Source: Streptomyces ortus
Lineage (GTDB): Bacteria; Actinomycetota; Actinomycetes; Streptomycetales; Streptomycetaceae
Length of the DNA: 64,000 nt
Reading direction: 5' to 3'
Assembly (NCBI RefSeq): GCF_026341275.1
Contig: NZ_JAIFZO010000002.1
Coordinates: forward strand, 5,424,118-5,488,117
Made by a program: the position numbers and the translations under genes. The notes beneath the pieces were generated by a model. It did no database searches, was not told where the DNA came from, and worked only from the letters and a program-made list of their open reading frames with translations. This document shows positions 47,109-64,000 of the stretch, one piece after another. The stretch's first letter is position 1, and the number at the start of each line of letters is the position of its first letter.

Positions 47109-49319
47109 CTAGTTGACGTCCTTTGCGTCGAGGCGGTAGAGGGACTGGGTGCTCTGGGTGCCCTGGGAGTCGGCGGAACCGCTGGAGTCGGCCGAGGAGT
47201 CGGTGCCGTACTCGCTCGCCTTCACCGCTGTCGCGTGCTTCTGCACCCAGGTGGTCACCTCGGAGCTGACGCTGTCGGAGTCGCCGCCCGGGCCGCCGCC
47301 TCCGCCCATGCCCCCGCCGCCGAGCACGATGTAGTGCAGCTCGCCCTTCTTCACGAGTTCCTTCAGCTTGGCGAGGGTCATGGCCTTGTCGCTGCCGGAC
47401 CAGCCCCACATGGAGATGACGGGCTGCTTGGTGCTGACGATCATTTGGGCCGCGCTCTGCGAACTCGAGACGGCGACCAGCCACTTGGCGCCGTCGCGGT
47501 GCTTCTCCAGATAGGAGGTCATGGCGGTGTCGGCGCCACCGCCCATGCCGCCGATTCCGCCGCCCATGCCGCCACCCGCGCCGGTGGGCGGGGTGCCGCT
47601 GGGGGCTCCGGTGGGGGCTCCGCCGGGGGGCGTGCCCATCTGGCCGTCGGCGTTGGCGTCGGGGGCCTCGCCGCCGGCCTGCCCGCTGTCTTGTCGCTGA
47701 CCGCCCTGCCGCTGACCGTCCTGCTGACCGCCGGGGGCCTGGCCGCCACCGCCGCCGGGGAAGCCGCCCCGGCCTCCGTCGCCCCCGGGGCCGCCCATGC
47801 CGCCGCCCGTGGTGGGGCCCGCCGTCGGATTCGTACCGCTCATACCCCCGCCCGAACTCGCGGGTACCGAGGCGGCGTAGGCCGCGGGCCCGGCGAGGGA
47901 GGCGACGACGGCGGCGGCCACGGCGCCGGTGAGGAAGCGCGCCCGGCGCCCGGACCGGAAGAGGAACAGGCCCACGATCGCCAGGACCATCACCACCGCG
48001 ACGGCTGGCCACAGCCAGGTGTTCCAGCCGGAGGCGCGCCGCAGCAGGACGACGGCCCAGACGCCGGTGGCGGCGAACGCCAAGGGCAGCACCCAGGACC
48101 AGCGCTTGGCGTCACCGGTACGGAAGGCACGCAGGAGCATCGCGCCGCCGCCTCCGCACAGCGCCGCGATGCCGGGCGCGAGGGCGGTCGTGTAGTACGG
48201 GTGCATGGTGCCTTCGGCGAGGCTGAAGGTGAGGTAGTGCAGCACGGTCCAGCCGCCCCACAGGATCAGCGCGGCGCGCGTGAGGTCCGTACGGGGGGCG
48301 CGTCCGCGCAGGACGAGGCCGCCGACGAGGGCGATCGCGGAGAAGGGGAGGAGCCAGGAGATCTGGCCGCCCAGCACGTCGTTGAACATCCGCCCGATCC
48401 CGGCGGTCCCGGCAAAACCGCCACCGCCGCCGCCACCCCCGCCTCCGCGGTTGCCGTCGCCGCCGAGGACGCGGCCGAGGCCGTTGTAGCCCATGATCAG
48501 GTCCCAGGCGGTGCCGTCCGTGGAGCCGCCGATGTACGGGCGCGAGGAGGCGGGCACGAGCGACACGGCGGCGGCCCACCAGAAGCTGGAGACCGCCAGT
48601 GCGACCGCCGCGACGGCGAGGTTGCGTACGCGCCGGATCCAGCCGCCCTTCGCCGCGTACAGGTAGACGGCGAAGACGGCGGGCAGGGCGATGTAGCCCT
48701 GGAGCATCTTGGTGTTGAAGGCGAACCCGAAGCACACGGCCGCGCCGACGAGCGGCAGCAGCCTGCCGTCGCGCACGGCGCGCAGGGCCAGGGCCGCGCC
48801 CCCGACCATCAGGAGGACCAGCAGGGTGTCGGGGTTGTTGTCGCGGTTGATGGCGACGGTGATCGGGGTGAGCGCGAGGACGAGCGCGGCGACGGCGGCT
48901 GCGCCGTGGCCCCAGATCCGCTTGACGGACGCGTGCACGATCCAGATCGTGCCGAGGGCGGCGGCGACCAGCGGCAGCATCATCTGCCAGGTGCCGTACC
49001 CGAAGACGCGGCAGGACAGGCCCATCACCATCAGGACGAAGGGCGGCTTGTCCACGGTCAGGAAGTTCCCGGCGTCCAGCGAGCCGAAGAACCACGCCTT
49101 CCAGCTCTGCGTACCGCTGAACACGGCGGCACTGTAGAAGCTGTTCAGGCTGGAGGAGGAGAGGTTCCAGGAGTACAGGACCCCGGCCAGGACGAGGATC
49201 GCGCCGAGCACGGGCAGCGACCAGCGGGGCGCCTTGTCGGGCCGCGCGACCGGCTCGTCGGACGGCGTGGAGGCGACGGCCTCGGGGGCGTGGGGGTACG
49301 GATCGGTGGCAGATGTCAC
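47109..49319 (-). CDS. GT39-family membrane glycosyltransferase (ArnT/PMT-like)
   Basis: 736 residues from GTG at 49319. About 12 membrane helices span residues about 30-480; the first external loop holds the aspartate-containing motif AGNFLTVDKPPFVLM and a second loop INRDNNPDTL, both typical of bacterial GT39 family members that use lipid-linked sugars. A soluble loop carries an uninterrupted run of ten glycines. The C-terminal part (about 480-736) is external: a Gly/Pro/Met/Gln-rich low-complexity stretch followed by a folded domain with LVAVSSSQSAAQMIV and ending in a Ser/Thr-rich tail. It probably glycosylates a cell-surface polymer or protein. The acceptor is unknown. Confidence 0.9.
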   Translation of the reverse strand: MTSATDPYPHAPEAVASTPSDEPVARPDKAPRWSLPVLGAILVLAGVLYSWNLSSSSLNSFYSAAVFSGTQSWKAWFFGSLDAGNFLTVDKPPFVLMVMGLSCRVFGYGTWQMMLPLVAAALGTIWIVHASVKRIWGHGAAAVAALVLALTPITVAINRDNNPDTLLVLLMVGGAALALRAVRDGRLLPLVGAAVCFGFAFNTKMLQGYIALPAVFAVYLYAAKGGWIRRVRNLAVAAVALAVSSFWWAAAVSLVPASSRPYIGGSTDGTAWDLIMGYNGLGRVLGGDGNRGGGGGGGGGGFAGTAGIGRMFNDVLGGQISWLLPFSAIALVGGLVLRGRAPRTDLTRAALILWGGWTVLHYLTFSLAEGTMHPYYTTALAPGIAALCGGGGAMLLRAFRTGDAKRWSWVLPLAFAATGVWAVVLLRRASGWNTWLWPAVAVVMVLAIVGLFLFRSGRRARFLTGAVAAAVVASLAGPAAYAASVPASSGGGMSGTNPTAGPTTGGGMGGPGGDGGRGGFPGGGGGQAPGGQQDGQRQGGQRQDSGQAGGEAPDANADGQMGTPPGGAPTGAPSGTPPTGAGGGMGGGIGGMGGGADTAMTSYLEKHRDGAKWLVAVSSSQSAAQMIVSTKQPVISMWGWSGSDKAMTLAKLKELVKKGELHYIVLGGGGMGGGGGPGGDSDSVSSEVTTWVQKHATAVKASEYGTDSSADSSGSADSQGTQSTQSLYRLDAKDVN

Positions 49320-49642
49320 GAGGTCATCGTGCGCGGCCGGTTTTGGCGGGGGCTGTGCTGAACCTGGGCCTCACCTGTGAGCGCCTGGCGGGTGACCCGC
49401 GGTCGCGTATGCATGCGAGAGGTGCACGACGGCCTCGCCGAAGAACGGGGCGCCCCGCGGAGTTTCGACGGGGTCGCGCCCGGCGCTGAGGCCGATGCCG
49501 TGCCGGTGTACCGACACGTGCGGATCACTCGTTCGGCCGTCCGTTGCCTCCGGTGGACGATATGTTTCCCGAGGCCACAGCCGTCCCCGGCCGGGCCACT
49601 GTCGGACCCGGCGGCTACCCTGAGCCCGGAGAGGAGGACAGC
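49320..49642. other. Intergenic region at the left edge of the defence island
   Basis: 323 bp between divergent starts. It should contain promoters for the GT39 and RloA-like genes. Open frames exist, but none has a ribosome binding site plus family-like content. Confidence 0.5.
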
Positions 49643-50896
49643 GTGCTACTGAGGTTCCGTGTCGCGAACGTACGGTCGCTGCGTGATGAACAGGAGCTGT
49701 CCTTCGTCGGGTCCGAGGACGGGACGAGCGGGGCAGCCCGTCCAGCAGAGCTGGCGGGCGGCCGGTCGGTGGACGTGCTTCCCCTGATCGGCATTTTCGG
49801 CGCCAACGCGTCGGGCAAGTCGAATGTGCTGGCCGCGATGGTCGACATGCGTACCGCTGTCCTCAACTCCTACGCCCGCTGGGCTTCGTACGACGGCATT
49901 CCGCGCTCTGTCTTCGCACTCGACCCGAAAGGGCAGAGCGAGCCGAGCTTTTTCGAGGTCGATCTCGTCATGGACGGCGTGCGCTGGACGTACGGGTTCG
50001 AACTCGGTGGGACCCAGGTCGAAGCCGAATGGCTGCACAGTTATCCGCGTGGTCACCGGCAGGTGTGGCTCGACCGCGACGCTTCCCGGGCAGAGGTGTA
50101 CGAATGGCCGGGAGCCCGGGTCAAGGACCGGGCGCAGCTCGTGCGGCGCACTCGCCCGAACGCGCTTCTGCTCTCCACCGCGGGGACGGACAACCACCCG
50201 CAGCTGTCCCCTCTCTTCCACTGGTTCCGCCGCAACCTGTGGCTGATCAACCCGGAGGACGCGCGGGCGCAGCGTGAGGCGTTCACCAGACAGGAACTTT
50301 CCGGAGCCAGGGCCCGCCGCATCGAGGAGCTGTTGCGGGTGGCCGACCTCGGCATCACAGGCACCGAACTCGTCGATGAGGGCAAGGGCCGGTCGACGGT
50401 GAAGCTGGTCCACCGTTCGATGACGGGCGAGGTCGCCTTCGACTGGCAGGCCGAGTCACTCGGCACCCGCTCCTGGTTCGCTCTGCTCGGCCCGTTGCTC
50501 CTGGCCCTGGACGAGGGCGCGGTGCTGCTGGTCGACGAGCTGGACGCGAGCCTGCATCCGCGGTTCGCCGCCGAAGTCGTCCGGCTCTTCCACGACCCCT
50601 ACGCCAACCCCAACGGCGCGCAGCTGGTATTCACCTCGCACGACCCGTCAGTGCTGACCACGCCGAGCGGTGGGCGACTGCTGGAGCCCGCTCAGGTGTG
50701 GCTGGCGGAGAAGGGCAAGGACGGGGCGACGGATCTCTACCCGCTGACCGCGGCGTCCCCGGGCGAGGGCGAGGACCTGATGAAGTCGTATCTCGCCGGG
50801 GCCTTCGGCGCGGTCCCGTCACTCATGGAGGGGCAGATCGCCCGACGGCTGCTGGCCGCCGGTGAGTACGCCGAGGACGAGGTGGAACAGGGCTGA
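49643..50896 (+). CDS. rloA: RloA-like AAA/SMC-type ATPase (AbiL-type defence ATPase)
   Basis: A 417-residue ABC/SMC-type ATPase of the AAA_15/AAA_21 class. Walker A is GANASGKS (residues 53-60), a signature-like ESLGTRS lies at 271-277, Walker B is VLLVDELDASLHP (294-306) and the switch histidine is in FTSHDPSVL. GTG at 49643 is 5 nt after GGAGAGGAGG; the longer frame to 49544 lacks such support. The stop overlaps the RloB ATG by one base, so the two are coupled. RloA/RloB pairs occur beside type I restriction loci and as AbiL phage-abortive systems; a defence role is inferred from that and from the neighbours. Confidence 0.9.
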   Translation: MLLRFRVANVRSLRDEQELSFVGSEDGTSGAARPAELAGGRSVDVLPLIGIFGANASGKSNVLAAMVDMRTAVLNSYARWASYDGIPRSVFALDPKGQSEPSFFEVDLVMDGVRWTYGFELGGTQVEAEWLHSYPRGHRQVWLDRDASRAEVYEWPGARVKDRAQLVRRTRPNALLLSTAGTDNHPQLSPLFHWFRRNLWLINPEDARAQREAFTRQELSGARARRIEELLRVADLGITGTELVDEGKGRSTVKLVHRSMTGEVAFDWQAESLGTRSWFALLGPLLLALDEGAVLLVDELDASLHPRFAAEVVRLFHDPYANPNGAQLVFTSHDPSVLTTPSGGRLLEPAQVWLAEKGKDGATDLYPLTAASPGEGEDLMKSYLAGAFGAVPSLMEGQIARRLLAAGEYAEDEVEQG

Positions 50897-51573
50897 TGGC
50901 GAGGACGAGGGGGAAGGACTCGCTGGGTCCGACGCAGCGTCGCGGGCGGCGCAAGAGGGTCGTCCATGTCTTCACCGAGGGGCTGGTCACGGAACCCTCG
51001 TACATCGAGATCGTCAAACAGCACGGCGTCCCGGCGGATCCCGCGATGACCGTGGAGGTGCGCATCGCGAACGCCTCCGCCCCCGGCTCGCAGCGCAAGC
51101 CGCTCAAGCTGGTCGAGGCGGCTGTCCGGCTGATGCGGGACGAGCAGCGGCAGGCGAAGCGCAGCGGGCTGGAGAAGAAGTACCTGCCGCAGGTCTGGTG
51201 CGTCTTCGACCGGGACGAGCACGAGGGCATCGAGACCGCGTTGAAGCAGGCACGGGAGGGTGACGTCAGGGTCGCTTTCTCCCATCCCTGCTTCGAGGTC
51301 TGGCGGCTGCTGCACCACAAGTCGGTCACCGGAACGTTCGCAGGGGTGTGCGGCCAGGTGACGGTGAGACTGCCCTTCGCGAAGACTCCGAAGGACGCGT
51401 CGAACATCAAGCTGGTGCTGCCGCACCAGGTCTCCGGAGGCTATCTGGACGCCAGGAAACGCGCTCTCCAGATGAACGCACAGCACGGTGACCATGTGGC
51501 TCTCGTCAACCGGGACCCGTACACCGACGTGCACGAATTCGTGGAGCAGGGGCTCGGGATCGCCTCGTACTGA
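50896..51573 (+). CDS. rloB: RloB-family protein (AbiL partner, Toprim-like)
   Basis: A 225-residue RloB-like protein. Conserved segments are [16 protein letters not shown] (Glu28 and Glu33), [10 protein letters not shown] (Asp105, Asp107) and [13 protein letters not shown] (129-141). The acidic spacing, a Glu early and a DxD later, resembles a Toprim nuclease centre, so with RloA it may form a split version of an OLD-type ATPase-nuclease; this is inference. It is the natural partner of the preceding ATPase and lies 125 bp upstream of hsdM. Confidence 0.88.
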
Positions 51574-51698: not shown

Positions 51699-54305
51699 GT
51701 GGCCAAGCTCACGCTCGCGCAGTTGGAGCGGCATCTGTTCGCCGCAGCGGACATCCTCCGGGGGACGATGGATGCCTCCGAGTACAAGGACTACATCTTC
51801 GGGCTGCTCTTCCTGAAGCGGGCCAACGACGAGTTCGAAGCGGCGCGGGAGGAGATCAGGCAGTACGCGAGCAGTGAACTGGGCCTGACCGACGAGATGC
51901 TGTCCGGTTTCCTTGAGCAGGAGTCCGAGTACAGCGAGCGTGACGTGCTCTTCGTACCGAAGAACGCCCGCTGGAAGTGGATCTCCTCGGCCACCCACAA
52001 CATCACCGAGGACCGGTTGCGTCCGGCGCTGCAGGCGCTGGAGGGACAGAACGCCAAGCTCCGAGGTCTCTTCGACCACCTCGACTTCAACCGCATCGGG
52101 GGCTCCGGAGCGGCTGCGGGCGCGGCCAGACTCGCCGACCAACGGCTGAAGCTGCTCATCGCGCACTTCGGGCGCATCCGGCTCCGTACGGACGACTTCG
52201 AGTTCCCCGACCTGATCGGTGCCGCGTACGAGTACCTGATCAAGGAGTTCGCGGACTCGGCCGGCCGCAAGGGCGGTGAGTTCTACACCCCGCGCGCGGT
52301 GGTCCGCATGATGGTCGAGTTGCTGGGCCCCCGCCAGGGGATGCGGATCTACGACCCGTGCGTCGGCTCGGGCGGCATGCTCATCCACGCCAAGGAGTAC
52401 GTGGAGGAGCACGGCGGCGACACGTCGGACATGTTCTTCGCCGGCCAGGACGCGAACAGCGGCTCCTGGATCATGTCGACGATGAACATGGTCCTGCACG
52501 GAGTGCGCCGCTTCGACCTGCACACCGGCGACACGCTCGCCGAACCGGCACATGTGCCGAGGTCGGACGCTGACCGCTTCGACGGCGTGCTCAGCAACCC
52601 GCCGTTCTCCATGGACTACGTGCTCGACGATCTGGCGCACGGCGCGCAGCGCACGACCTACGGGGTGACCAGCGAACGCGGCAAGGCCGACCTGATGTTT
52701 CTCCAGCACATGCTGTGGGAGACGAAGCGCGAAGGCCGCGGCGGCATGGTCATCACCGTCATGCCGCACGGTGTGCTGTTCCGCGGAGGCGGCGAGCAGG
52801 CGATCCGTACGAAGCTGCTCGACGAGGACGCCGTCGAGGCGGTCATCGGCCTCGCGCCGAACATCTTCTACGGCACCGGCATCCCGGCCTGCATCCTGGT
52901 GCTGCGTCCGCCGGGCATGAAGGACTCGGCGCGGGCGGGCAAGGTGCTGTTCGTCAACGCGGACCGCGAGTTCCATGCGGAGCGGGCGCAGAACGTGCTG
53001 CTGCCGGAGCACGCCGAGAAGATCACGTCGGCGTTCCATGAGTACGCGGAGGTGCCCGCCTTCTCGCGTGTCGTCAGCCGCGAAGAACTGCGGGACAACG
53101 ACGACAACCTCAACATCCGCCGCTACGTGGACAACACACCGCCGCCGGAGCCGCAGGACGTGCGGGCGCACCTGGTGGGAGGCATGCCGCGTGCGGAGAT
53201 CGAGGCGAAGAAGGAACTGCTCGACTCGTACGAGCTGGTGCTGACCGACCTGTTCGCGGAGCGGGACCCGGCCGACGAGAAGTACGTGGACTTCCTGCCG
53301 GAGGGGCAGAGGCCGGACGCGGCGCGGCTGGGGGAGCTGGCCCGCCCGCGCGAGGACGCGTTGCGGACGGCGTTCGACAAGTGGTGGGCCGCTGAGGCGC
53401 GACAGTTGGAGGCGGTTGCGGCTACGCCGGAGCGGTTGGCGGACCTGACGCCCTCGGAGCGCAAGGCCGCGCTGATGGCGGTGCGCGGCTCGCTGATGGA
53501 GTCGTTCGTGGAGCAACTGCGAGGGGTCGGCCTGCTGGACCGGTACGCGCTGGCGGGAGCGGTGGCCGGCTGGTGGTACGAGGCCAAGTACGACCTGCTC
53601 GCGCTGTCGGAGAACGGGTTCGCGGGGGTTGTGGACGGCTGGGTCGAGAACGTCGAGACGATGCTCGCGCCCGAGCAGGACCCGAAGACGCGGAAGCTGA
53701 AGAAGCGGACGGCGGCGGAGCGGCGGCAGGCGTACGACCACAAGGTGGTCGCGGCCATCGCGCCCGACTTCCTGGAGGAGCTGGCGGCGGCGGACGCGCG
53801 GAAGGCGGAGCTGGACGCGCGGTGGAAGGAGCTGAACGCGGAGCCGGATGCTTCGGAGGACGGTGAGGGCGACGAACGTGACGAGGACGCTGTCACACGG
53901 GAGGCCGTGACCCTGAGCGTGGAGCAACTGGCGGAAATCGCCCAGGTGAAGAAGGACCGCACGAAGGTAGGGGCGCTGATCAAGCGGCTTGAGGGGGACT
54001 TCTGGTTCGAGCGGGCTGCTGCTTCGGCGGGGCAGTCCCGGTTGGGGGAGGAGGAGCCGCGGTTGTTCCGGGCTCGGGCCGCGTTGAGCCCGGAGGGGGA
54101 GCGGCGGGTCGTGCTGGACCTGCTGCGAGACGACCTGGTCGGGAAGCTGGATGGTCATGTGGTGCGTCGGCGTCGGGAATTGGCGGATACGTACGGGGTG
54201 TGGGAGTCGAAGTACGCGGTGTCGTTGAGGGAGATCCGGGCTGGGCGGGAGAAGGCGGCGGAGACGCTGGACGGGTTTCTGAAGGAGCTTGGCTATGTCG
54301 GCTGA
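51699..54305 (+). CDS. hsdM: Type I restriction-modification methyltransferase subunit HsdM
   Basis: 868 residues from GTG at 51699. HsdM_N helices (about 1-165) are followed by the N6-adenine methyltransferase domain: GGEFYTP (192-198), SAM motif [10 protein letters not shown] (219-227) and catalytic NPPF (300-303). It methylates adenine in the target set by HsdS. The typical HsdM ends near 500-540 residues; here a further 330 or so follow, rich in Lys/Glu/Arg helices ([38 protein letters not shown]). HsdM subunits of this longer class exist, but the extension's role is unclear. The 3' end overlaps hsdS. Confidence 0.95.
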
Positions 54306-55497
54306 CGTGAGTGGCACTCGTTTCCTGCCTCTTGAGGCCCTTGCTGAGATCACGGGTGGTGTAGCCCTTGGCGGAGGTGCTCCAGGCGGTGCTGTCGAGT
54401 TGCCTTATTTGCGCGTAGCGAATGTCCAAGACGGATACATCGATACGCACGACGTCAAGACAGTTGGGGTGCCCGCGAGTGCGGTTAGGCGATTTCGTCT
54501 GATGCGCGGAGACGTTCTGCTGACTGAGGGCGGGGATCTCGACAAGCTTGGCCGGGGCGCTGTTTGGGACGGTCGGATCGATCCTTGCCTGCATCAAAAT
54601 CACATTTTCAAGGTGCGGTGCGATCGGGCGAAACTCTTGCCCGAGTTTCTATCGCTTTACATGGCTTCCGGTGAGGGGAAATCTTTCTTCTTGCGTGTTG
54701 CTAAGCAGACAACGAATCTGGCTTCGATCAGCTCGTCACAGCTGAAAGCCATGCCGGTTCCTGTGCACTCGCTTGCCGGGCAGCGGCGGATCGTCGACGT
54801 GATCGAAACCGTGTCGGCGCAGGAGCGTGCCATCGAGGCGTCGATCGCGAAGCTGGAAGCATTCAGTGGTGGTGTGATGGCGGAACTCGCGGACCTGGAG
54901 TGCGGAACGCTAAATGATGTCCTTGATTTTGGTCCACAGAACGGGATCTACAAGCCTGGATCCTCCTATGGGCTTGAGGGGACACCGATCGTTCGTATTG
55001 ACAGCTTTAGAGGTGGCCCATCGGATTTTACCCGGAACCTCCTCCGTGTTGCGGTGGCCAACGAGGAGGTCGAGCGCTATAAGCTTGTCACCGGTGACGT
55101 TCTGATCAACCGGGTGAACACCCCGGAACTGGTTGGAAAGTCAACTGCTGTAGGCGAGGTGCTGGAATCGACGGTTTTTGAGTCGAATATGATGCGGTGC
55201 AAGTTGCGTGCCGATCGAGCTGTTCCTGCTTTTGTTGAAACGTGGCTGGGAGGGAGAACGGCGAAGGCGCACTTCCGTGCACGCGCTAAGAGCGCAATTT
55301 CGCAAGCCAGTATCAATGGCAGTGATGTGCGTAGTTGCCCGTTCCCGAAACTTCATATTGCTGAACAGTTGGAGTTTCTAGATCGACTTGCAGCGGTCAG
55401 AGGGCAGCAGCGATTTGAGAATGGTGAGCTGGTCAAGCTCAGGAAACTCAAGCAGGGGATCATGGATGGGTTGTTGGATCGCCGCGTCAGCGTCTGA
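54295..55497 (+). CDS. hsdS: Type I restriction-modification specificity subunit HsdS
   Basis: 400 residues with two target recognition domains. The first begins [12 protein letters not shown] and carries [14 protein letters not shown], and the second carries [12 protein letters not shown]; each is followed by a helical spacer ([24 protein letters not shown] and [34 protein letters not shown] in pieces). The ATG at 54295, with GAAGGAG 7 nt upstream, overlaps the hsdM stop. Base composition is visibly more AT-rich than any neighbour and codon choice is relaxed, suggesting recent acquisition or recombination of this specificity gene. The recognition sequence cannot be predicted. Confidence 0.95.
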
Positions 55498-55584
55498 ATA
55501 TCGGCCCGCGTTGGCTTGCTAGCTCTTTTCCGCAAGACCGATCCCGCAGACAGGCGCCGTCGGCACCGACCAGGGGCTCACGCC

Positions 55585-55908
55585 TCAACTTCGATGTCGC
55601 GGCAATGGCGGTGCCGGCGGTCGACGATGTGACATGGCCCCCGTCACACGACAGGGGCTGGTCGCCGGGAGAGAGGGAGTCCTTGTCCATGCGGGGAACT
55701 TGCCGTCCTTGACGGCTGTGACGAACGATGACCAGTCAGCCGCCGGGAATACCAGCGCGGGACCGTGCGGGATCTTGGAGTCGCGGACAGGGACGCCCGA
55801 GGGGTGGTCATCCAGCACCTCGATGCAACTGCCTCCCTCGCTGTTGCTGTAGGACGACTTCCGCCAGCCTCGCAGTGCTGCAGCGTTCGGGATTATTCGG
55901 TCAGTCAT
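55585..55908 (-). CDS. DUF397 domain protein
   Basis: A 107-residue protein with a DUF397 domain at residues about 14-75 (GWRKSSYSNSEGGSCIEV ... VPVRDSKIPHGPALVFPAADWSSFVTAV) and a Pro/Arg-rich tail. DUF397 proteins accompany XRE/DUF5753 regulators in Streptomyces (BldB/WhiJ-type systems) and probably act with them. Its ATG overlaps the XRE gene's stop by 8 nt. It runs opposite to the hsd genes. Confidence 0.88.
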   Translation of the reverse strand: MTDRIIPNAAALRGWRKSSYSNSEGGSCIEVLDDHPSGVPVRDSKIPHGPALVFPAADWSSFVTAVKDGKFPAWTRTPSLPATSPCRVTGAMSHRRPPAPPLPRHRS

Positions 55909-56695
55909 GGTGTCCGTAGTCCTTCGCTGTCGCCCTCAGTAGGGCCAATGAATCTTTTAGCGGCACTGCGTCGCTCATCGCGAGATCGTAGCGGCCCTGC
56001 AACTCCCGAACCACGGACGGGGAGTCGTGCATCTTCCCCATGCGCAGGCCCTCGCTGTACGCCACGGGCGGTTGGTCGTCGAACCACATCAGGCTGAGCA
56101 TGTTCTCCATCAGCGGGTGGAAGCCCAGGCTGAACGGCATCACATGGACCCGTACCCGGCCCCTCTCTGCAAGGCGAACCATGTGCATGATCTGCTCCGC
56201 CATCACATCGGGCCCGCCCACGACCCGCCGCAACACCGCCTCGTCCAGCAGTGCCCAAACTACCGGCGTCACCGGATCGTCAAGGATCTTCGCGCGCTCA
56301 CGCCGTGTGACAACGAGCCTGTCACATTCCCTTTCACCCACAGGAGGGAACGACGTGCCCAGAACCGCACGTGCGTACCGTTCCGTCTGGAGGATGCCCG
56401 GTACGAACGACAGGGCGAACTCCCGGATCATCACCGCCTGTTGTTCGAGCAGCCGAGCCGCCTCGAAGTAGCTGGCGACCGCCGCGTCCTCCGCTGGCAG
56501 GAAACTGCTCAGCACATTTCCCGTGTTCAGGACCCTATCCAGGCGCCGGGCGTCCTCCTTGGAAGGAACGCGCCGCCCCGCCTCGATGTGCGAGATGTGC
56601 GAACGAGTCATGACCGCCGCGTCGGCCAACTCCTGCTGTGTCAGCCCTGCCGTCTCGCGTTGCTGCTTGAGCCAGTCACCGTACGTGCTGGTCAT
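55901..56695 (-). CDS. XRE-family regulator with DUF5753 domain (WhiJ-like)
   Basis: 264 residues. The helix-turn-helix at about 9-60 reads LKQQRETAGLTQQELADAAVMTRSHISHIEAGRR. The DUF5753 ligand-like domain covers about 95-255, with FVPGILQTERYARAVLG, VTRRERAKIL and VMPFSLGFHPLMENMLSLMWF. It is the upstream partner of the DUF397 gene and divergent from a small Streptomyces gene. Such modules influence development in S. coelicolor. Sitting between hsdS and hsdR, it might also affect restriction gene expression. Confidence 0.9.
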   Translation of the reverse strand: MTSTYGDWLKQQRETAGLTQQELADAAVMTRSHISHIEAGRRVPSKEDARRLDRVLNTGNVLSSFLPAEDAAVASYFEAARLLEQQAVMIREFALSFVPGILQTERYARAVLGTSFPPVGERECDRLVVTRRERAKILDDPVTPVVWALLDEAVLRRVVGGPDVMAEQIMHMVRLAERGRVRVHVMPFSLGFHPLMENMLSLMWFDDQPPVAYSEGLRMGKMHDSPSVVRELQGRYDLAMSDAVPLKDSLALLRATAKDYGHHD

Positions 56696-56706
56696 GGCCT
56701 CTCCTT

Positions 56707-56727
56707 TGTGACAAATGACTGGTCACA
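56707..56727. promoter_or_regulatory. Inverted repeat in the XRE promoter region
   Basis: TGTGAC and GTCACA are separated by 9 nt just upstream of the XRE gene (start 56695). It is a candidate autoregulatory operator. Confidence 0.45.
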
Positions 56728-56865
56728 CCCGACCCTCTGGCGAGCCTAGACCGGGCCGTCTCACTCTGTAAGTGAATGGCTACAGAATGCGAGACCCCCG
56801 CGACCGTGCGACCTGTACGACCGGTCCGTGGCATGGCCATCAACGAACCCAACGGAGTTGACGAC

Positions 56866-57185
56866 ATGAGTCACCGTGTCGCCCGCCTCTTCGAACCGCT
56901 GCTGCGATTGCTCTTTCCCGGAACGGGGCGCAGGCGTCGCCCGGTCACTGCTCCGGTGGGTGCGTGCGCGTGTCCCCCTACTCTTGTGGCGAGGGAGCTA
57001 CCTCCACCCGGGTCGGCTCGCGTTCCCTGCGGGGTGAGGACCACGTGACGGTCCGTCCTTATCTCGTCGCCCATGAGCGCGAGGAAGCGCGGCGGCAACG
57101 GGGGCGGAGGCGTGCCCTGTGGCTCGCCGTGCACGGCGTCGACATCGGGCCGCAGGTCATCCATGGTGTGGAGGTGACCGTGTGA
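56866..57185 (+). pseudogene. Small conserved Streptomyces gene, apparently frameshifted
   Basis: From ATG at 56866 the frame encodes MSHRVARLFEPLLRLLFPG and a Pro/Ala-rich stretch, then stops at about 57048. A second frame, recognisable from about 57008 (TRVGSRSLRGEDHVTVRPYL and LAVHGVDIGPQVIHGVEV), gives the expected second half and ends at 57185. The total of 320 bp is one base short of a whole number of codons (321), so a single-base change separates the halves. These small proteins accompany XRE/DUF397 modules in Streptomyces. Two separate short genes are an alternative. Its stop overlaps the next gene (GTGA). Confidence 0.6.
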
Positions 57186-57544
57186 TCGGCAACCGGACGG
57201 AAACCGCCCGCTTGCTTCCGTGGTCCGGCCCGGAAGGCAAGCCTTGTTACCTCGTCGGCGACGGGAGCGGTCATCTCTCCCGGGTCGCCGACAGAGTCGA
57301 GAGCGTGCAGCTCGGCATGGCGGGCGACCTCCTCGATCACGCCGCCCACATGCTCGCGGACGACAAGTCCACCTCCGTGCAGCTTCGTTTCCTGGCGGCT
57401 CGGATGGCCGAGGCGCTGCGTGACGTCCACCGCATCGCGGAGAGCCGGGGCGCCCGTCTACCCGATGCCGAGTGCGCCGACCTTGACGGGATCGACGACT
57501 CCGACGAGCCCGGCGACGCCGAGAACCTCGTACCGGGATCCTGA
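57182..57544 (+). CDS. Conserved Streptomyces protein of XRE/DUF397 neighbourhoods, unknown function
   Basis: 120 residues from GTG at 57182, overlapping the preceding stop as GTGA. The N-terminal part (RLLPWSGPEGKPCYLVGDGSG) is followed by helices (GMAGDLLDHAAHMLADD, LRFLAARMAEALRDVHRIAESRG) and an acidic tail. Related small proteins occur downstream of XRE-divergent genes in many Streptomyces. No enzymatic motif was recognised. Confidence 0.75.
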   Translation: MIGNRTETARLLPWSGPEGKPCYLVGDGSGHLSRVADRVESVQLGMAGDLLDHAAHMLADDKSTSVQLRFLAARMAEALRDVHRIAESRGARLPDAECADLDGIDDSDEPGDAENLVPGS

Positions 57545-57807
57545 TCCGCCCGCGCCAACCGGCGCCCCCCCCGCACACCCTGCACACCTTGACCGGGGGC
57601 GTACTTCACCTCCTCCGCGTACGCCCCGGTCCGTCGCGCACCACGAGGAGGAGAGGCGGGGATCCCTGGTCGCCCACCAGAATCCTCCAGACGCCCGCGT
57701 CCTCGTCCTCGCCCACCCCGTCCGGCCGGATCCCTCCCCTCCGCCCCGCCCAAGGCGCAGAATGGATCACTTCGGCGGGCAGGGACAGCGGGCGGAAGGC
57801 GCGGCAC

Positions 57808-60800
57808 ATGGCGGTGCAGGTCGAACGGGACGAGGTGGAGCGGCCGTTCGTCCAGCAGCTCACCGCCATGGGCTGGACGCACGTGGCCGGTACGGAGGTC
57901 GGTACGCTCGACGCCGGTACGCCTGTCCTTGCCGAGGAGCTCAAGGCCGCCCTGCGGCGCATCAACGTCCGGGCGGCGGACCGCGAACCCTGGATGGACG
58001 ACACCGATGTCGCCCGCTCCATCGCGGAACTGGCATCCGTCCCACTCGGGAAGGGCGTCGTACAGGCCAATTTCGCCGCCACCGACCTGCTGCTCAGCGG
58101 ATGCGTCCTCACAGGGCCCTCCGCCGCGCACGGCGGTGCCTCCGCCACCGTCCAGTACATCGAATGGCACCCCGACCACGTCACGCTCAACGACTTCACC
58201 GTCGTCGACCAGCTCCGCGTCAAGAACCGTTCCGGGGACGTGTCGATACTCGACATCGTCCTCTTCGTGAACGGCATCCCCCTCGTCGCAGTCGAGTGCA
58301 AGAGCCCCGACCTCGCCGAGCCCGTCCGCAGCGCCGTACTCGATCTGCGGCACTACGCCGGCGACCCGATCGACGACGACGAGCGCACCGGAACCGACCT
58401 GCCGCTCCCGGGCGGCGTACCCGAGCTGTTCCGGACCGTGCAGTTGCTGGTCGCGGCGACCGGCGAGACCGCCCATCTCGGCACCGTCACCTCCTCGCCC
58501 GAGCGCTTCCATCCGTGGCGCAGCGTGAGCCCGGAGAGGGAGAGCACGCTCAGGAAGGAGCTGCCGGACGGCACCGGCAAGCTGACCGAGCAGCACAAGC
58601 TCGTGGGTGTCGTCCTGCGGCCTGCCGCCCTGCTGAACTTCGTACGCCATTACGTCATCCCCCTGCCCGTGGAGACCGAGTCCGGGGCGGTCCGGACCGT
58701 CAAGGCGGTCGCCCGGCACCAGCAGTACCGGGCCGCCGAGAAGGCTGTACGCAAGCTGCTCTCCGGCCGTCCGCGCGGCGGGCCGGTGCCCGACGACGAG
58801 CGTGGCGGTGTCATCTGGCACACCCAGGGCTCCGGCAAGAGTCTGACCATGACCTTCCTCGTGCGCCGGGTCCATCTGCACCCGAAGCTCAGCGAGTTCA
58901 CGGTCGTGATCGTCACCGACCGCACCCAGCTCCAGGACCAGCTGTCCAAGACCCTGAAGCTGAGCGAGTCGGATGTCGAGAGAGCCGAGACCCGTACGCA
59001 GATGGAGGGACTGCTGAGGGACGGTGGCCGACGCGTCGTCTTCGCGATGATCCAGAAGTACGGGGGCGGGTTCACCTTCGCCGCCGAAGCCGAGGGTGAC
59101 GCCGACGACCGTGATCTCACGAAGGAGTACGACGACGCCGAGCGTGCCGGAAAGGGCCGCAAACGGCGCAAGGGGCCGCCGCCCGTCCCGAACTTCCCCG
59201 AGTGCAACACCTCGTCGGACATCCTGGTCCTGGTCGACGAGGCGCACCGCTCGCACACCAGCGTCCTGCACGCGGCCCTGCGCAAGGCCATCCCGAACGC
59301 CGCGAAGATCGGTTTCACGGGTACGCCGATCATCACCGGCGAGGCCTCCGACACCCGCCGGATCTTCAGCGGCGGCCCGGACAGCGGCTTCCTGGACGAG
59401 TACCGGATGGAGGAGGCCGAGCACGACGGCGTCGTCGTGCGCATCCGCTATGAAGGGCGCACCGGTGAGGGAAGGGTTTATGACAAGGAAGGTCTGGATC
59501 GCTCCTTCGAGGACCTGATCCGCGACCGCACGGACGAGGAGAGGGCGACCCTCCTCAACCGGTGGCCCACCGAACGGGACGTCGCCGAGTCGTGGCCGAT
59601 GATCTGTGCCAAGGCCGAGGACATGCTGGAGCACTGGGTGTGCTGGGTGCTGCCCTCGGGCGGGTTCAAGGCCCAGGTGGCGGCCGTGAGCCGGAAGGCG
59701 GCCGTCGAGTACCACCACGCACTGCGCCGGGCTCGCGACCAACTCCTTTCCGAACTCGTCGAGTTCAGGCCGGAGTCCGTTCACGGGATCCCGCTCAAAG
59801 AGCTTCCACGGCATCTCCGCTACCTCTACCAGGCGTACGAGTTCCGGGCGATCCTGCGCCGCATCGACTTCGTGCCGGTCGTCTCCCCGGGAGCGGAACG
59901 CAAGCGCCGCAAGTGGCTTCACTGGACCGACCCGAGCCGTCAGAAGGCGTACATCGATCGCTTCCACGAAGCGTTCCCACAGCTGCCGCCCGAGCCCGAC
60001 TGGGTCGCCGCCACGCCCTTCAACGCTCCGGAGCCGGTCATCCACGGGAACGGCCTCGGCGCCGACACTCCCTGGTCCGACATGCCGACCGGGCAGCCGG
60101 AGCCGGGACCATCGAAGACCGAGGTTCCCGACCCCGTACATCCGGAGAGCCCCATCGCCTTCCTGATCGTGAAGTCGATGCTTCTCACCGGATTCGATGC
60201 CCCGCGCGAGCAGGTGCTCTACCTCGACCGGCCCATCCGGGACGCCGAGCTGCTCCAGGCCGTTGCCCGCGTCAACCGGCCCGCGCCAGGTAAGAAAGTC
60301 GGGTACGTCGTGGACTACTACGGCGTGTTCGAGCACCTTTCCAGTGCGCTGGCCGACTACCGGCAGGCCGACGTCGACGACACCATGCGAAGTCTGTCCA
60401 CGGAGGTGAAAGCCCTCGCGCCCGCCGCCGCGCGGGTACGCGCGTTCCTGAGCGAGCAGGGTGTGACGGACGCGGACCTCACCGACCTCGCCCGACTGCG
60501 CGAGGCCGTCCTGTCCTTCGAGGACGAGACCGTCCGTCTCCGTTTCGACGAGGTGTTCCACGAGTTCCTCGCCGTACTGGAACGGGTACTTCCGCACGAG
60601 GACGCGTTGGACCACCTTGCCGACGCCCGGCGTTGGGGGATGCTGCAGAAGCGTGTCCGGCGTCTGTACCGGGACGACACGGGCGGGACGTTCACCCTGC
60701 GCCGGTACGGACGCAAGGTACGAGCCATGATTGCCGACCATTTGGAAGGACCGGAGATCGAGCAGGTCATCCCGCCCGTCTCGCTCACCTCACCCGTCTT

Positions 60801-61365
60801 CGACGACATGGTGCGTGAGCTGCCTCCGCGCGAGGCTGCGGCCGAGATGGGGCATGCCCTCCGGTTCCATCTGGAGGAGCGGGTCAAGAGGGAGGACCCG
60901 GAGAAGTACGACAGGCTTTCCAGGCGACTGGAGGAGATCCTGAAGCAGATGCCCGGTCGTTTCGAGGAGCAGGTCGAGGAGTTCGAGATGCTCATCGAGC
61001 ACGCCAGGCAGGAGGACGAGGAGGACCCCGCCCTCGCAGGGCTCAGCCTGCTGGAGCAGCGTGTCCACCGGCTTCTGGATCAGCTCCTTGAGGACAACCC
61101 GGGAATCGAGGGTGGCCAGGAGGACACGCGACCTCTGGTCGTCGCCGTGTGTGACACCGCGGCGAGCACGATGTCCAAGGCTTCCTACCAGGGGCAGCAC
61201 CAGGACATCAACCGTCTCGCGAACGGCATCCAGACACAGCTGATTCGTAGCGGCCTCAGGCCCGCATCCGCCGACTGGGGGCCGCTGACCCATGTCTCCC
61301 AGCGACTCGCGGCATACGCGGAGATCAACCGGCAGCAGTTCCTGAGCCGGGCCAGGGGAGAATAG
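57808..61365 (+). CDS. hsdR: Type I restriction-modification endonuclease/translocase subunit HsdR
   Basis: 1185 residues. The ATG at 57808 is 9 nt after GGAAGG; the longer frame to 57589 is repeat-like. The N-terminal HSDR_N nuclease domain has Asp149 and Glu163-Cys-Lys165 (LDIVLFVNG, VAVECKSP). The SF2 motor has Walker A TQGSGKS (339-345) and DEAH (477-480), with a later FDAPREQVLYLDRP and QAVARVNRP motif VI region, and the C-terminus is helical (DUF3387-like). It translocates DNA with ATP and cuts at a distance from unmethylated sites bound by HsdM/HsdS. It is separated from hsdS by a 2.3-kb regulatory module. Confidence 0.96.
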   Translation: MAVQVERDEVERPFVQQLTAMGWTHVAGTEVGTLDAGTPVLAEELKAALRRINVRAADREPWMDDTDVARSIAELASVPLGKGVVQANFAATDLLLSGCVLTGPSAAHGGASATVQYIEWHPDHVTLNDFTVVDQLRVKNRSGDVSILDIVLFVNGIPLVAVECKSPDLAEPVRSAVLDLRHYAGDPIDDDERTGTDLPLPGGVPELFRTVQLLVAATGETAHLGTVTSSPERFHPWRSVSPERESTLRKELPDGTGKLTEQHKLVGVVLRPAALLNFVRHYVIPLPVETESGAVRTVKAVARHQQYRAAEKAVRKLLSGRPRGGPVPDDERGGVIWHTQGSGKSLTMTFLVRRVHLHPKLSEFTVVIVTDRTQLQDQLSKTLKLSESDVERAETRTQMEGLLRDGGRRVVFAMIQKYGGGFTFAAEAEGDADDRDLTKEYDDAERAGKGRKRRKGPPPVPNFPECNTSSDILVLVDEAHRSHTSVLHAALRKAIPNAAKIGFTGTPIITGEASDTRRIFSGGPDSGFLDEYRMEEAEHDGVVVRIRYEGRTGEGRVYDKEGLDRSFEDLIRDRTDEERATLLNRWPTERDVAESWPMICAKAEDMLEHWVCWVLPSGGFKAQVAAVSRKAAVEYHHALRRARDQLLSELVEFRPESVHGIPLKELPRHLRYLYQAYEFRAILRRIDFVPVVSPGAERKRRKWLHWTDPSRQKAYIDRFHEAFPQLPPEPDWVAATPFNAPEPVIHGNGLGADTPWSDMPTGQPEPGPSKTEVPDPVHPESPIAFLIVKSMLLTGFDAPREQVLYLDRPIRDAELLQAVARVNRPAPGKKVGYVVDYYGVFEHLSSALADYRQADVDDTMRSLSTEVKALAPAAARVRAFLSEQGVTDADLTDLARLREAVLSFEDETVRLRFDEVFHEFLAVLERVLPHEDALDHLADARRWGMLQKRVRRLYRDDTGGTFTLRRYGRKVRAMIADHLEGPEIEQVIPPVSLTSPVFDDMVRELPPREAAAEMGHALRFHLEERVKREDPEKYDRLSRRLEEILKQMPGRFEEQVEEFEMLIEHARQEDEEDPALAGLSLLEQRVHRLLDQLLEDNPGIEGGQEDTRPLVVAVCDTAASTMSKASYQGQHQDINRLANGIQTQLIRSGLRPASADWGPLTHVSQRLAAYAEINRQQFLSRARGE

Positions 61366-61370
61366 AGCGC

Positions 61371-62153
61371 GTGACCGCGCTTGCCGACAACCGCCAGGCC
61401 GAGACACCCGTGGACGGTGACTCGGTCACCGTCGACGGCATCTCCATGCGCGTGCGGGTGAGTGCCCGCAGGAAGCGGTTCGCGCTCACCGTGGAGCCGG
61501 ACGCGACCCTGACCCTGCACGTTCCCGAAGGGCGCCCGAAGACGGAGGCGGAGGACTTCGCACGGGCGCACCGGGAGTGGGTGGTCGCTAAACTCGGCCA
61601 GCGCGAGCGGACTCGCCCGCTGAACCCCGCGAAACGGCTGACCGAGGGGGAGGTCTTCCGCTACCTGGGGCGGACGTACCGGTTGGCGGTGTCGGACAGC
61701 GCACCCGCAGACGGCAGGATCCGGCTGGTCGCCGGTCGGCTGGTGATCGCCCGCAGACAGGCCGAGGACGAGGCGGAGGGGCGTGCTGCGCTGGTCGACT
61801 GGTACTGCCGGGCGGGCCGGGCATGGGCCGTCGACCGGGTCCAGCCGTGGGCCGCTCGCATGGCGGTCGGCGAACCTGAGTTGGATGTACGGGACTTGGG
61901 GCACAAGTGGGGCGCGTACCGGCCCGGTGAGGGGATGGGGGAGCCGGGTCGGATGAGTCTGGGGTGGCCGCTCTTCCAACTTCCCATGCATCTGGTCGAC
62001 TACGTCATCGCGCACGAACTGGCCCACGTGAAAGTCTCCGGGCACGGCGCGGACTTCTGGCGGCTGGTGCGGCTCGCGCTGCCCGAGTACGAGGAGCGCC
62101 GGGCGGAACTCGACGAGCTGGGCCGCCGCATGTGGATGGGCGAGATCCGCTGA
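61371..62153 (+). CDS. YgjP/M48-type metallopeptidase linked to type I restriction
   Basis: 260 residues from GTG at 61371, 5 bp after the hsdR stop. The N-terminal beta-rich part (about 20-150) has RRKRFALTVEPDATLTLHVP and the C-terminal part carries the zinc motif HELAH (215-219) with a third ligand His225 (SGHGADFW). This is the SprT/YgjP (DUF45, WLM-like) architecture. Genes of this family often follow hsdR in bacterial type I loci, so it is probably part of the same operon. Its target is unknown; it could process the complex or a phage protein. Confidence 0.9.
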   Translation: MTALADNRQAETPVDGDSVTVDGISMRVRVSARRKRFALTVEPDATLTLHVPEGRPKTEAEDFARAHREWVVAKLGQRERTRPLNPAKRLTEGEVFRYLGRTYRLAVSDSAPADGRIRLVAGRLVIARRQAEDEAEGRAALVDWYCRAGRAWAVDRVQPWAARMAVGEPELDVRDLGHKWGAYRPGEGMGEPGRMSLGWPLFQLPMHLVDYVIAHELAHVKVSGHGADFWRLVRLALPEYEERRAELDELGRRMWMGEIR

Positions 62154-63425: not shown

Positions 63426-63450
63426 GCGGGCACGCGCACCGCGTGCCCGC
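63426..63450. terminator. Terminator after the RTX gene
   Basis: GCGGGCACGCG (63426-63436) pairs with 63440-63450 across a 3-nt loop, 17 bp after the stop codon. Confidence 0.8.
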
Positions 63451-63508
63451 TGTCCGGAATTCACGGGCAGGACCCTCCCTCTCCACCCGTTCCTCCTACC
63501 GTGACGCC

Positions 63509-64000
63509 ATGCCCATGCCCATGCCCATGCCCGCGAGCCTGAGATCCGTACTCGCCGCCCTCGCCGCCGGCCTGGCGGCAGCCACCTGCCTCACCGCCGC
63601 CGGCCCCGCCGTCGCCGGGCCCGCCCCCGCCCAGCCGCGCGGCGGGGCCTGCTCGCCCGCCGTCTCCGTCCAGCGCTTCTCCGACGCCCTCGACAAGACG
63701 ACGTACGAGGGCACGGTCGTCGGCAACTTCTCCGCGCTGGCCGTGGACCGGGACGGGGCGATCGCCGCCCTGTCCGACCGGTCCGCCCTCTTCACCCTCG
63801 ACCCGACGACCCTGCGCCCGCGCTCCGTCGTCCCGCTGGCCGACGAGAGCGGCGCCGCGCTGGACTCCGAAGGGCTCGTCGTCGATCGCGACGGCAGCCG
63901 GCTCGTGTCCTCCGAGACCGAGCCGTCGGTGCGCCGGTACGGGAGGGACGGCACCCTCCTCGGGCGCCTCCCCGTGCCGGACGCCCTGCGCGTCGCCCCG
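63509..64000 (+). CDS. Secreted esterase-like/phytase-type propeller protein, N-terminal fragment
   Basis: The coding frame runs to the window end, so only about 164 residues are visible. The start is the first of four ATG codons in an ATGCCC hexamer array; any of 63509, 63515, 63521 or 63527 could be used. A signal peptide (LRSVLAALAAGLAAATCL then AAGPAVAG) is followed by a domain beginning RFSDALDKTTYEGTVVGNFSALAVDRDG, with LADESGAALDSEGLVVDRDGSRLVSSE, matching the family annotated as esterase-like activity of phytase. The remaining sequence and its active site lie outside the window. Confidence 0.8.
   Translation, partial: MPMPMPMPASLRSVLAALAAGLAAATCLTAAGPAVAGPAPAQPRGGACSPAVSVQRFSDALDKTTYEGTVVGNFSALAVDRDGAIAALSDRSALFTLDPTTLRPRSVVPLADESGAALDSEGLVVDRDGSRLVSSETEPSVRRYGRDGTLLGRLPVPDALRVAP

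Follow-up and report, generated by a model that had tools for sequence, protein, structure and literature searches.

Gene organization of the locus

We analyzed a 64,000-nt window of the Streptomyces ortus contig NZ_JAIFZO010000002.1, to which all coordinates below refer, and found that the gap between hsdS and hsdR of an rloAB-linked type I restriction-modification (R-M) cassette contains a gene pair of the WhiJ/BldB type, i.e., an XRE regulator with helix-turn-helix (HTH) and DUF5753 domains and its DUF397 partner (Table 1). The genes of HsdM, HsdS and HsdR are present together, which from genes alone assigns the cassette to the type I R-M systems. The regulator gene adjoins the DUF397 gene and is provided with a divergent partner gene and conserved upstream blocks, both being hallmarks of WhiJ/BldB (XRE-DUF397) modules. 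The initial annotation had placed the pair on the opposite strand between hsdS and hsdR, which ORF (open reading frame) positions and profile matches confirm. Its coordinates for the two genes are right, but of the interval 55585-57544 that it marked, the pair covers only the part up to 56695; the remainder consists of the divergent promoter region and three small ORFs, orfA-C.

The most constant divergent partner of the window XRE clade is orfC, which matched no Pfam family at 0.001. No TTA codons, which would point to bldA dependence, occur in the eleven genes of the locus. Among the matches listed, the closest named HsdR (88%) is that of Streptomyces sp. TRM68416. The 736-aa protein of the left flank is a putative GT39 protein. 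The window DUF397 ORF (107 aa) exceeds those of several relatives (e.g., 73 aa in L039 and 85 aa in L051; "L" numbers are locus handles), its extra part (55585-55690) spanning a palindrome.

Table 1. Genes and putative control signals of the cassette and its flanks (window coordinates)
Feature	Position	Strand	Evidence or remarks
Left chromosomal flank, 736-aa protein	47109..49319	-	~91-93% identity to genes adjoining solo module in L233, L235
rloA-like AAA ATPase gene, start codon uncertain	49544..50896	+	PF13304; PADLOC AbiLi
rloB	50896..51573	+	PF13707 RloB; PADLOC AbiLii
hsdM	51699..54305	+	PF02384; PF12161; PADLOC MTase_I 2.2e-247
Palindrome GTGAC-N9-GTCAC in hsdM variable linker	53878..53896	.	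Also in L051, L056, L066, L232, L260
hsdS	54289..55497	+	PADLOC Specificity_I 3.1e-69; no Pfam match at 0.001
DUF397 (BldB-type) gene, 107 aa	55585..55908	-	PF04149 1.2e-21
Palindrome GTGAC-N9-GTCAC at DUF397 3' end	55629..55647	.	
XRE HTH + DUF5753 (WhiJ-type) gene, 264 aa	55901..56695	-	PF13560; PF19054 4.4e-48
Palindrome GTGAC-N9-GTCAC inside XRE, ~codon 127	56307..56325	.	45/50 XRE-A loci, solo modules included
op1, GTGAC-N9-GTCAC, just upstream of XRE start	56708..56726	.	Conserved block in 50 loci
op2, CTGGCGAGcCTAG; minus strand reads TAGGCT, possible -10 of XRE	56737..56752	.	Conserved block in 50 loci
op3, GTCTCACTCTGTgAGTGgATCGCTACA-type element, orfA side	56758..56786	.	Conserved block, 49/50 loci ungapped
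orfA, small ORF	56833..57048	+	Homologues adjoin same XRE in some relatives
orfB, small ORF	57045..57185	+	Homologues in some relatives
orfC, small ORF	57182..57544	+	Homologue in 40/40 contexts L232-L271
GC-rich hairpin between orfC and hsdR, terminator-like without T run	57591..57631	+	4 covarying pairs, 7 sequences
Promoter-like element GCGCAGAATGGATC, first base 53 bp before hsdR ATG	57755..57768	+	
hsdR, ATG at 57808	57808..61365	+	PF04313; PF18766; TIGR00348 371.8 bits, above cut-off
YgjP-type metallopeptidase gene	61371..62153	+	PF01863 1.1e-43
Right chromosomal flank, leaves window	63443..64000	+	81% to gene right of solo module in L233

Recurrence of the module between hsdS and hsdR

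HsdR searches covered 199 and 295 genomes of the same genus (overlapping sets), 394 genomes of the class and, additionally, named genome contigs. They yielded 25 intact loci with rloA, hsdM, hsdS and hsdR, 12 from the 199-genome set, six from the 295-genome set, one from the class and at least six from named contigs. These are not independent: L048/L049/L105, L046/L136 and L040/L149/L150 lie close on the HsdR tree, and some are near-copies. The 25 include L055, in which hsdR is present as two overlapping ORFs, and leave out L044 (contig end), L051 (truncated hsdR, module present), L053 and L054 (both degraded) and L052.

The gene maps place a DUF5753 gene in the hsdS-hsdR gap of 22 of the 25 intact same-genus RloAB-HsdMSR loci. 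It occupies the opposite strand in 18 (the window, L039, L041, L042, L045-L050, L056, L066, L071, L105, L136, L147, L149 and L150) and the same strand in four (L043, L055, L061 and L151). Two further loci, L040 (9157-10506) and L148 (9277-10749), have the DUF5753 regulator replaced by a larger protein of 449 and 490 aa, respectively, a putative regulator with an HTH judged by eye and, in L040, the one copy scanned, a sub-threshold TPR match; its gene still lies opposite to the retained orfB/C or orfA-C. The gap of L152 holds a degraded orfC only. At the other cassette junctions of the 25 loci we found neither a DUF5753 nor a DUF397 gene, and the background density of the former is approximately one per 250 kb (37 matches in the 9.29-Mb genome of 8 contigs). 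None of 14 control type I loci from other families in the genus (L153-L166) has a DUF5753 gene in the gap; there, hsdS and hsdR overlap with nothing in between. Chance insertion is unlikely given the recurrence in 22 of 25 loci and the several stocks of modules involved (see below). That the module had been "inserted" was presumed in the initial annotation; the comparison reveals a recurring arrangement rather than a recent single insertion.

Outside the genus, the gap of L060, L135 and L138 is occupied by a same-strand DUF5753 gene. L137 has such a gene before hsdR, no hsdS being detected there, and in L142 the pair precedes hsdR, yet 6.9 kb away from hsdS; the gaps of L057-L059, L140 and L143-L145 contain no DUF5753 gene. 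Among the 38 loci outside the genus with a gap of >300 bp, ten, picked mostly for length, were scanned. All ten gaps, from other phyla, encode Schlafen/AlbA_2, GmrSD, macro-domain or Abi proteins (L064, L067, L069, L072, L073, L074, L080, L081, L104 and L118), so that non-hsd genes are embedded as cargo in the hsdS-hsdR gap of related systems.

Several variants of the arrangement were noted. In L039 (5807-10223), the module is not alone in the gap: an extra 4.5 kb, comprising a 685-aa ORF and a masked stretch, separates hsdS from the DUF397 gene. L071 (9911-17124) has a tandem pair of hsdR-like genes behind a single module. Compact hsdMSR operons of another family (L159, L162, L166 and L251) are followed by an XRE/DUF397 pair on the opposite strand, 13 to ~1000 bp after hsdR; the XREs of L159, L162 and L251 belong to the window clade, that of L166 does not.

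Stocks of modules and their histories

Trees were built by quick IQ-TREE searches with SH-aLRT (Shimodaira-Hasegawa-like approximate likelihood ratio test) support only and with long-branch warnings, for HsdR (47 rows) and XRE (80 rows, including own-genome paralogues). In the HsdR tree, one clade unites the loci with modules of stocks A, C and D, L134 being nested within it, and a second the B loci; the presence of the module requires at least four changes. The XRE tree groups the same loci differently. Here, the cassette regulators of A, B, C (L043/L055/L151) and L061 fall into different branches, between which own-genome paralogues are placed, and L136 pairs with an own-genome paralogue as sister to B. 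L042 and the loci outside the genus probably represent further stocks. The DUF5753 family would then have supplied modules from four or more of its branches, placed in either orientation, which the weak deep branches make a reading rather than a test. The divergent partner also varies by stock: A has orfA-C, B and C a gene for an AbaA-like HATPase (three such proteins scanned).

For seven A loci (21 pairs, which are not independent), Spearman rho between identities was 0.85 for hsdR-rloA and 0.77 for hsdR-hsdM, and 0.50 and 0.35 for hsdR-XRE and hsdM-XRE, respectively. Solo copies are closer to the window XRE (83%) than is the XRE of the cassette whose HsdR is nearest (75%). These values indicate partly separate histories of the XRE and R-M genes, and a single ancient insertion inherited unchanged with hsdR is unlikely given the discordant trees and identities.

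Solo modules and two chromosomal loci

The search with the window XRE returned 62 matches at ≥60% identity in 60 of the 295 genomes, of which 48 were examined (eight in loci already mapped and 40 in new contexts that extend ~8 kb to either side as far as contig ends permitted), the 14 left out being low-ranked. Five belong to intact split cassettes (the window, L039, L041, L149 and L150), one to a cassette with a truncated hsdR (L051), five to partial cassettes or debris (L232, cut by a contig end, L244, L247, L259 and L260), and three adjoin another type I system (L159, L162 and L251). In the vicinity (~8 kb) of the other 34 copies no hsd gene was detected, hence the module has an existence of its own, and a restriction of this XRE clade to hsd loci is to be rejected. 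As a side observation, the hsdM ORF of L051, L232 and L260 extends into the hsdS region, an apparent M-S fusion, with hsdR either truncated or undetected (the L232 contig ends within the locus).

We found that 24 of the 40 new contexts share at least two of six tested flanking genes with the window locus; 22 of them have no hsd gene, and two have debris only (L244 and L247). The cassettes L039, L040, L056, L066 and L148-L150 share window-locus flanks too, L041 does not. One chromosomal locus thus carries the module in two forms, on its own or flanked by rloAB-hsdMS on one side and hsdR-ygjP on the other. A second locus, near 3.258 Mb of the own genome, carries a solo module, and its flanks are common to five B cassettes (both sides) and to L105 (one side). 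No hsd debris was detected by tblastn at this locus or by profile in the 3-4.5 kb stretches around the own-genome paralogues (L167-L201). As to the direction of change, loss is seen in the remnants L244, L247 and L259, and the right half is missing in L232 (contig end) and L260; alongside loss, cassette halves could also have been gained at a solo locus.

Control signals on the regulator side

Alignment of 50 XRE-A promoter regions defined three conserved blocks, op1, op2 and op3. The first lies 22-31 bp before the XRE start, and its palindrome is exact in 37 of the 50 loci. The copy inside the XRE gene is partly forced by the protein sequence. That in hsdM was found in six of the ten XRE-A loci with hsdM, being absent from L039, L041, L149 and L150, and in none of four loci without the window XRE (L040, L148, L152 and L134). 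This regulator-like site (53878-53896 and its homologues) is retained at the DNA level within a variable linker. Exact op1-type palindromes number 25 in the 9.29-Mb genome, four of them inside a 2.85-kb stretch of the window cassette; when one mismatch is allowed, the five window matches stand against 4.0 expected, i.e., no enrichment. In the 300 bp upstream of hsdR, the clade palindrome scored at background in all 11 usable loci, seven of which have the window XRE (L051 was dropped for its truncated hsdR). No regulator site was thus found at the endonuclease promoter in a test that covered the clade palindrome only, not op3.

WhiJ9-type direct repeats (CGNNCTCAAC) had no match at ≤1 mismatch in 56696-56832, and a single one-mismatch match lies inside orfA (56844-56853); the repeat is known for WhiJ9 only, and family membership is unaffected. 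Scanning of 55400-57900 also revealed a terminator-like site on the minus strand (56734-56721), no more than expected by chance.

The promoter-like element and hairpin before hsdR

The initial annotation had hsdR expressed from a separate promoter, which gains support from a conserved promoter-like element that mostly lies behind a covarying hairpin. A CAnAATGG core is located ~40-60 bp before hsdR in all ten loci of the window HsdR clade that have orfC, and GCGCAGAATGGATC itself is exact in seven of them; in the genome, GCGCAGAATGGATC is single-copy at ≤1 mismatch. Among the five C/D loci, CGCAGAATGG is exact in L061 and L151 and has one mismatch in L042, two in L043 and no match in L055. At the same place, nine of ten B loci show a TANNNT hexamer, a loose motif found by eye. 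The hsdR element is absent from L134. It is common to loci of stocks A, C and D and to those with a replaced DUF5753 gene, and for this reason does not seem tuned to the window XRE.

A homologous hairpin precedes the element in seven of the ten loci, and L041 has a different one. After orfC of the 40 new module contexts we detected neither element (within 600 bp) nor hairpin, save that the remnant L247 has the hairpin motif and L261, far downstream, a core with one mismatch; both signals consequently belong to the hsdR half of the cassette. Read-through from orfABC into hsdR is unlikely given the hairpin and the element of hsdR's own, with the caveat of L056, L148 and L041. It seems that hsdR forms an independent unit, the start of which does not depend on the regulator lying upstream.

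What the module may do in the cassette

We propose that the interval forms a WhiJ/BldB-type switch, complete and self-contained and transcribed away from orfA-C, which occupies the hsdS-hsdR slot. With hsdR presumably started from its own promoter behind the hairpin, the cassette would act as two transcription units, rloAB-hsdMS and hsdR-ygjP. The regulator would work mainly on its own divergent promoter, autoregulating itself and controlling orfABC or, in other stocks, the AbaA-like ATPase gene. The module would then be accessory cargo accompanying the restriction system, similar to DarTG2 in enteropathogenic Escherichia coli (EPEC), rather than a control protein of hsdR. That it is recurrent, self-regulated cargo splitting the cassette into M and R units is quite possible, if short of probable; we lean to it because the slot holds cargo in other phyla and in EPEC, TgvAB is embedded in a V. 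cholerae type I cluster, and WhiJ9 governs a divergent gene and probably itself. The repeated co-location suggests that switch and restriction system are linked, and the benefit would most likely be a coupling of the host developmental response to the fate of the restriction system.

A number of observations weigh against this proposal. The 34 of 48 examined copies with no detected hsd gene nearby are among them. L052, a locus of the same genus (HsdR 36%), has neither rloAB nor module and a gap of 15 bp, and in L134 (HsdR 70%, another family) rloAB is present while the gap, of 93 bp, holds no module; the module is thus not indispensable. L056 and L148 lack a homologous hairpin, and the window hairpin taken alone is unexceptional in comparison with shuffles (z -1.47), 18 of 200 being equally stable. 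Scanning of 55400-57900 for the sigma-70 consensus gave no promoter. The trees are quick searches with weak deep branches. Finally, none of 14 tested S. coelicolor XRE/DUF397 pairs behaved as toxin-antitoxin (TA) (PMC10364602).

The initial annotation, which overall is partly supported, suggested that the XRE/DUF397 pair could time hsdR expression after modification, as control (C) proteins do, and this we consider unlikely. It agrees with the separate conserved element of hsdR, with the rarity of exact palindromes and the grouping of four of them here, with the one at the DUF397 3' end, and with a palindrome-like site upstream of rloA in L260 and L051 (background fraction 0.003 and 0.007, weak as the best of ~50 region tests); it is the palindrome in hsdM that leaves it some weight. 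Transcriptional repressors of type I systems do exist, RptR being a precedent (PMC12255303). Yet the motif was defined from the window region, which makes two of the four sites non-independent, allowing one mismatch removes the enrichment, and upstream of hsdR the palindrome stays at background throughout. Moreover, the hsdR element does not change with the regulator, the same module with the same sites occurs in relatives with no detected hsd genes, also alone at the same locus, and L134 retains its cassette with no module at all. A TA pair stabilizing the cassette was predicted by Makarova 2009 (PMC2701414) and Doroghazi 2014 (PMC4239341), and TA cargo is described for the hsdS-hsdR slot (PMC12255303). 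It is nevertheless highly improbable here: the 14 S. coelicolor DUF397 proteins were overexpressed without clear toxicity (PMC10364602), and the related WhiJ9/BldB proteins function in transcription control (PMC10294661).

A hotspot or recombination hinge, in which the module resides at two loci and solo and cassette alleles are swapped by homologous recombination with no need of a functional link, is somewhat unlikely but keeps more weight than hsdR timing because of that residence at two loci. The flanks shared by solo modules and cassettes at both places fit it, and so do the weak tracking of R-M identity by XRE identity, the closeness of the window XRE to solo copies and the existence of half cassettes and remnants (L232, L244, L247, L259 and L260). 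It leaves unexplained, however, why different branches arrive at the same junction, in both orientations and at other loci too (L041), and at no other junction; nor does it seem likely that genes would insert on both sides, with the operon order correct, at each of two loci. We return to the cargo proposal with a bolder extension, which is doubtful: WhiJ/BldB switches could be bound to restriction systems by descent, solo modules being left behind after loss of M and R. If true, some solo modules, e.g., that of the own genome near 3.258 Mb, would be what remains of restriction cassettes after co-option into development, and in cassettes that are still alive phage defence would stay tied to the developmental programme.

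Streptomyces has many BldB/WhiJ paralogues, and a recurrent, position-specific tie to a type I cassette offers a concrete handle on their role. Likewise, the list of hsdS-hsdR cargo would widen from defence effectors to developmental regulators. Each of the parts is known; of the recurrent placement of developmental-regulator modules in a restriction cassette, with WhiJ/BldB or XRE-DUF397 modules inside restriction loci, our searches of the open-licence literature found no report, which does not imply its absence in print.

Comparison with known systems

In Campylobacter hsd loci, rloAB adjoin the type I genes as well; unlike there, the hsdS-hsdR gap of the window holds a WhiJ/BldB module. PrrC is another occupant of the hsdS-hsdR slot. 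C proteins are small, single-domain HTH proteins encoded in an operon with the endonuclease gene. The window XRE resembles those of type II systems in being an HTH regulator adjoining R-M genes (PMC12707154) and gives a weak generic match to PADLOC Control_protein (2.2e-4). In contrast to them, it is larger (264 aa), carries DUF5753 and is encoded on the opposite strand and not in an operon with the R gene, and no operator was found at the hsdR promoter.

Closer in layout is the RptR-RMS-DarTG-M48 island of EPEC (PMC12255303), which combines a type I R-M system with extra genes in the hsdS-hsdR gap, a known cargo slot, where it holds DarTG2, with an M48 gene behind and with a dedicated small repressor. 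It differs from the window in that RptR is a 9-kDa protein encoded by the first gene of the island and in the nature of the cargo. TgvAB of V. cholerae are similarly two genes embedded in the type I R-M cluster of VPI-2, but this cargo is a type IV restriction system (PMC11411939).

The regulatory part is most similar to WhiJ9-BldB9-iosA and abaA-whiJ-bldB of S. venezuelae (PMC10294661), where an XRE regulator and a DUF397 gene are combined with a divergent target; WhiJ9 activates the divergent gene, probably represses itself and has BldB partners. Its binding site lies between the promoter and the start of the regulator gene, a place that in the window is taken by a conserved block, a putative counterpart. 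The DUF397-gene promoter of the WhiJ9 system lies inside the regulator gene, where the window has only a palindrome. Unlike WhiJ9, the window module has orfA-C as partners, the palindrome GTGAC-N9-GTCAC in place of CGNNCTCAAC direct repeats, and a location within a restriction cassette.

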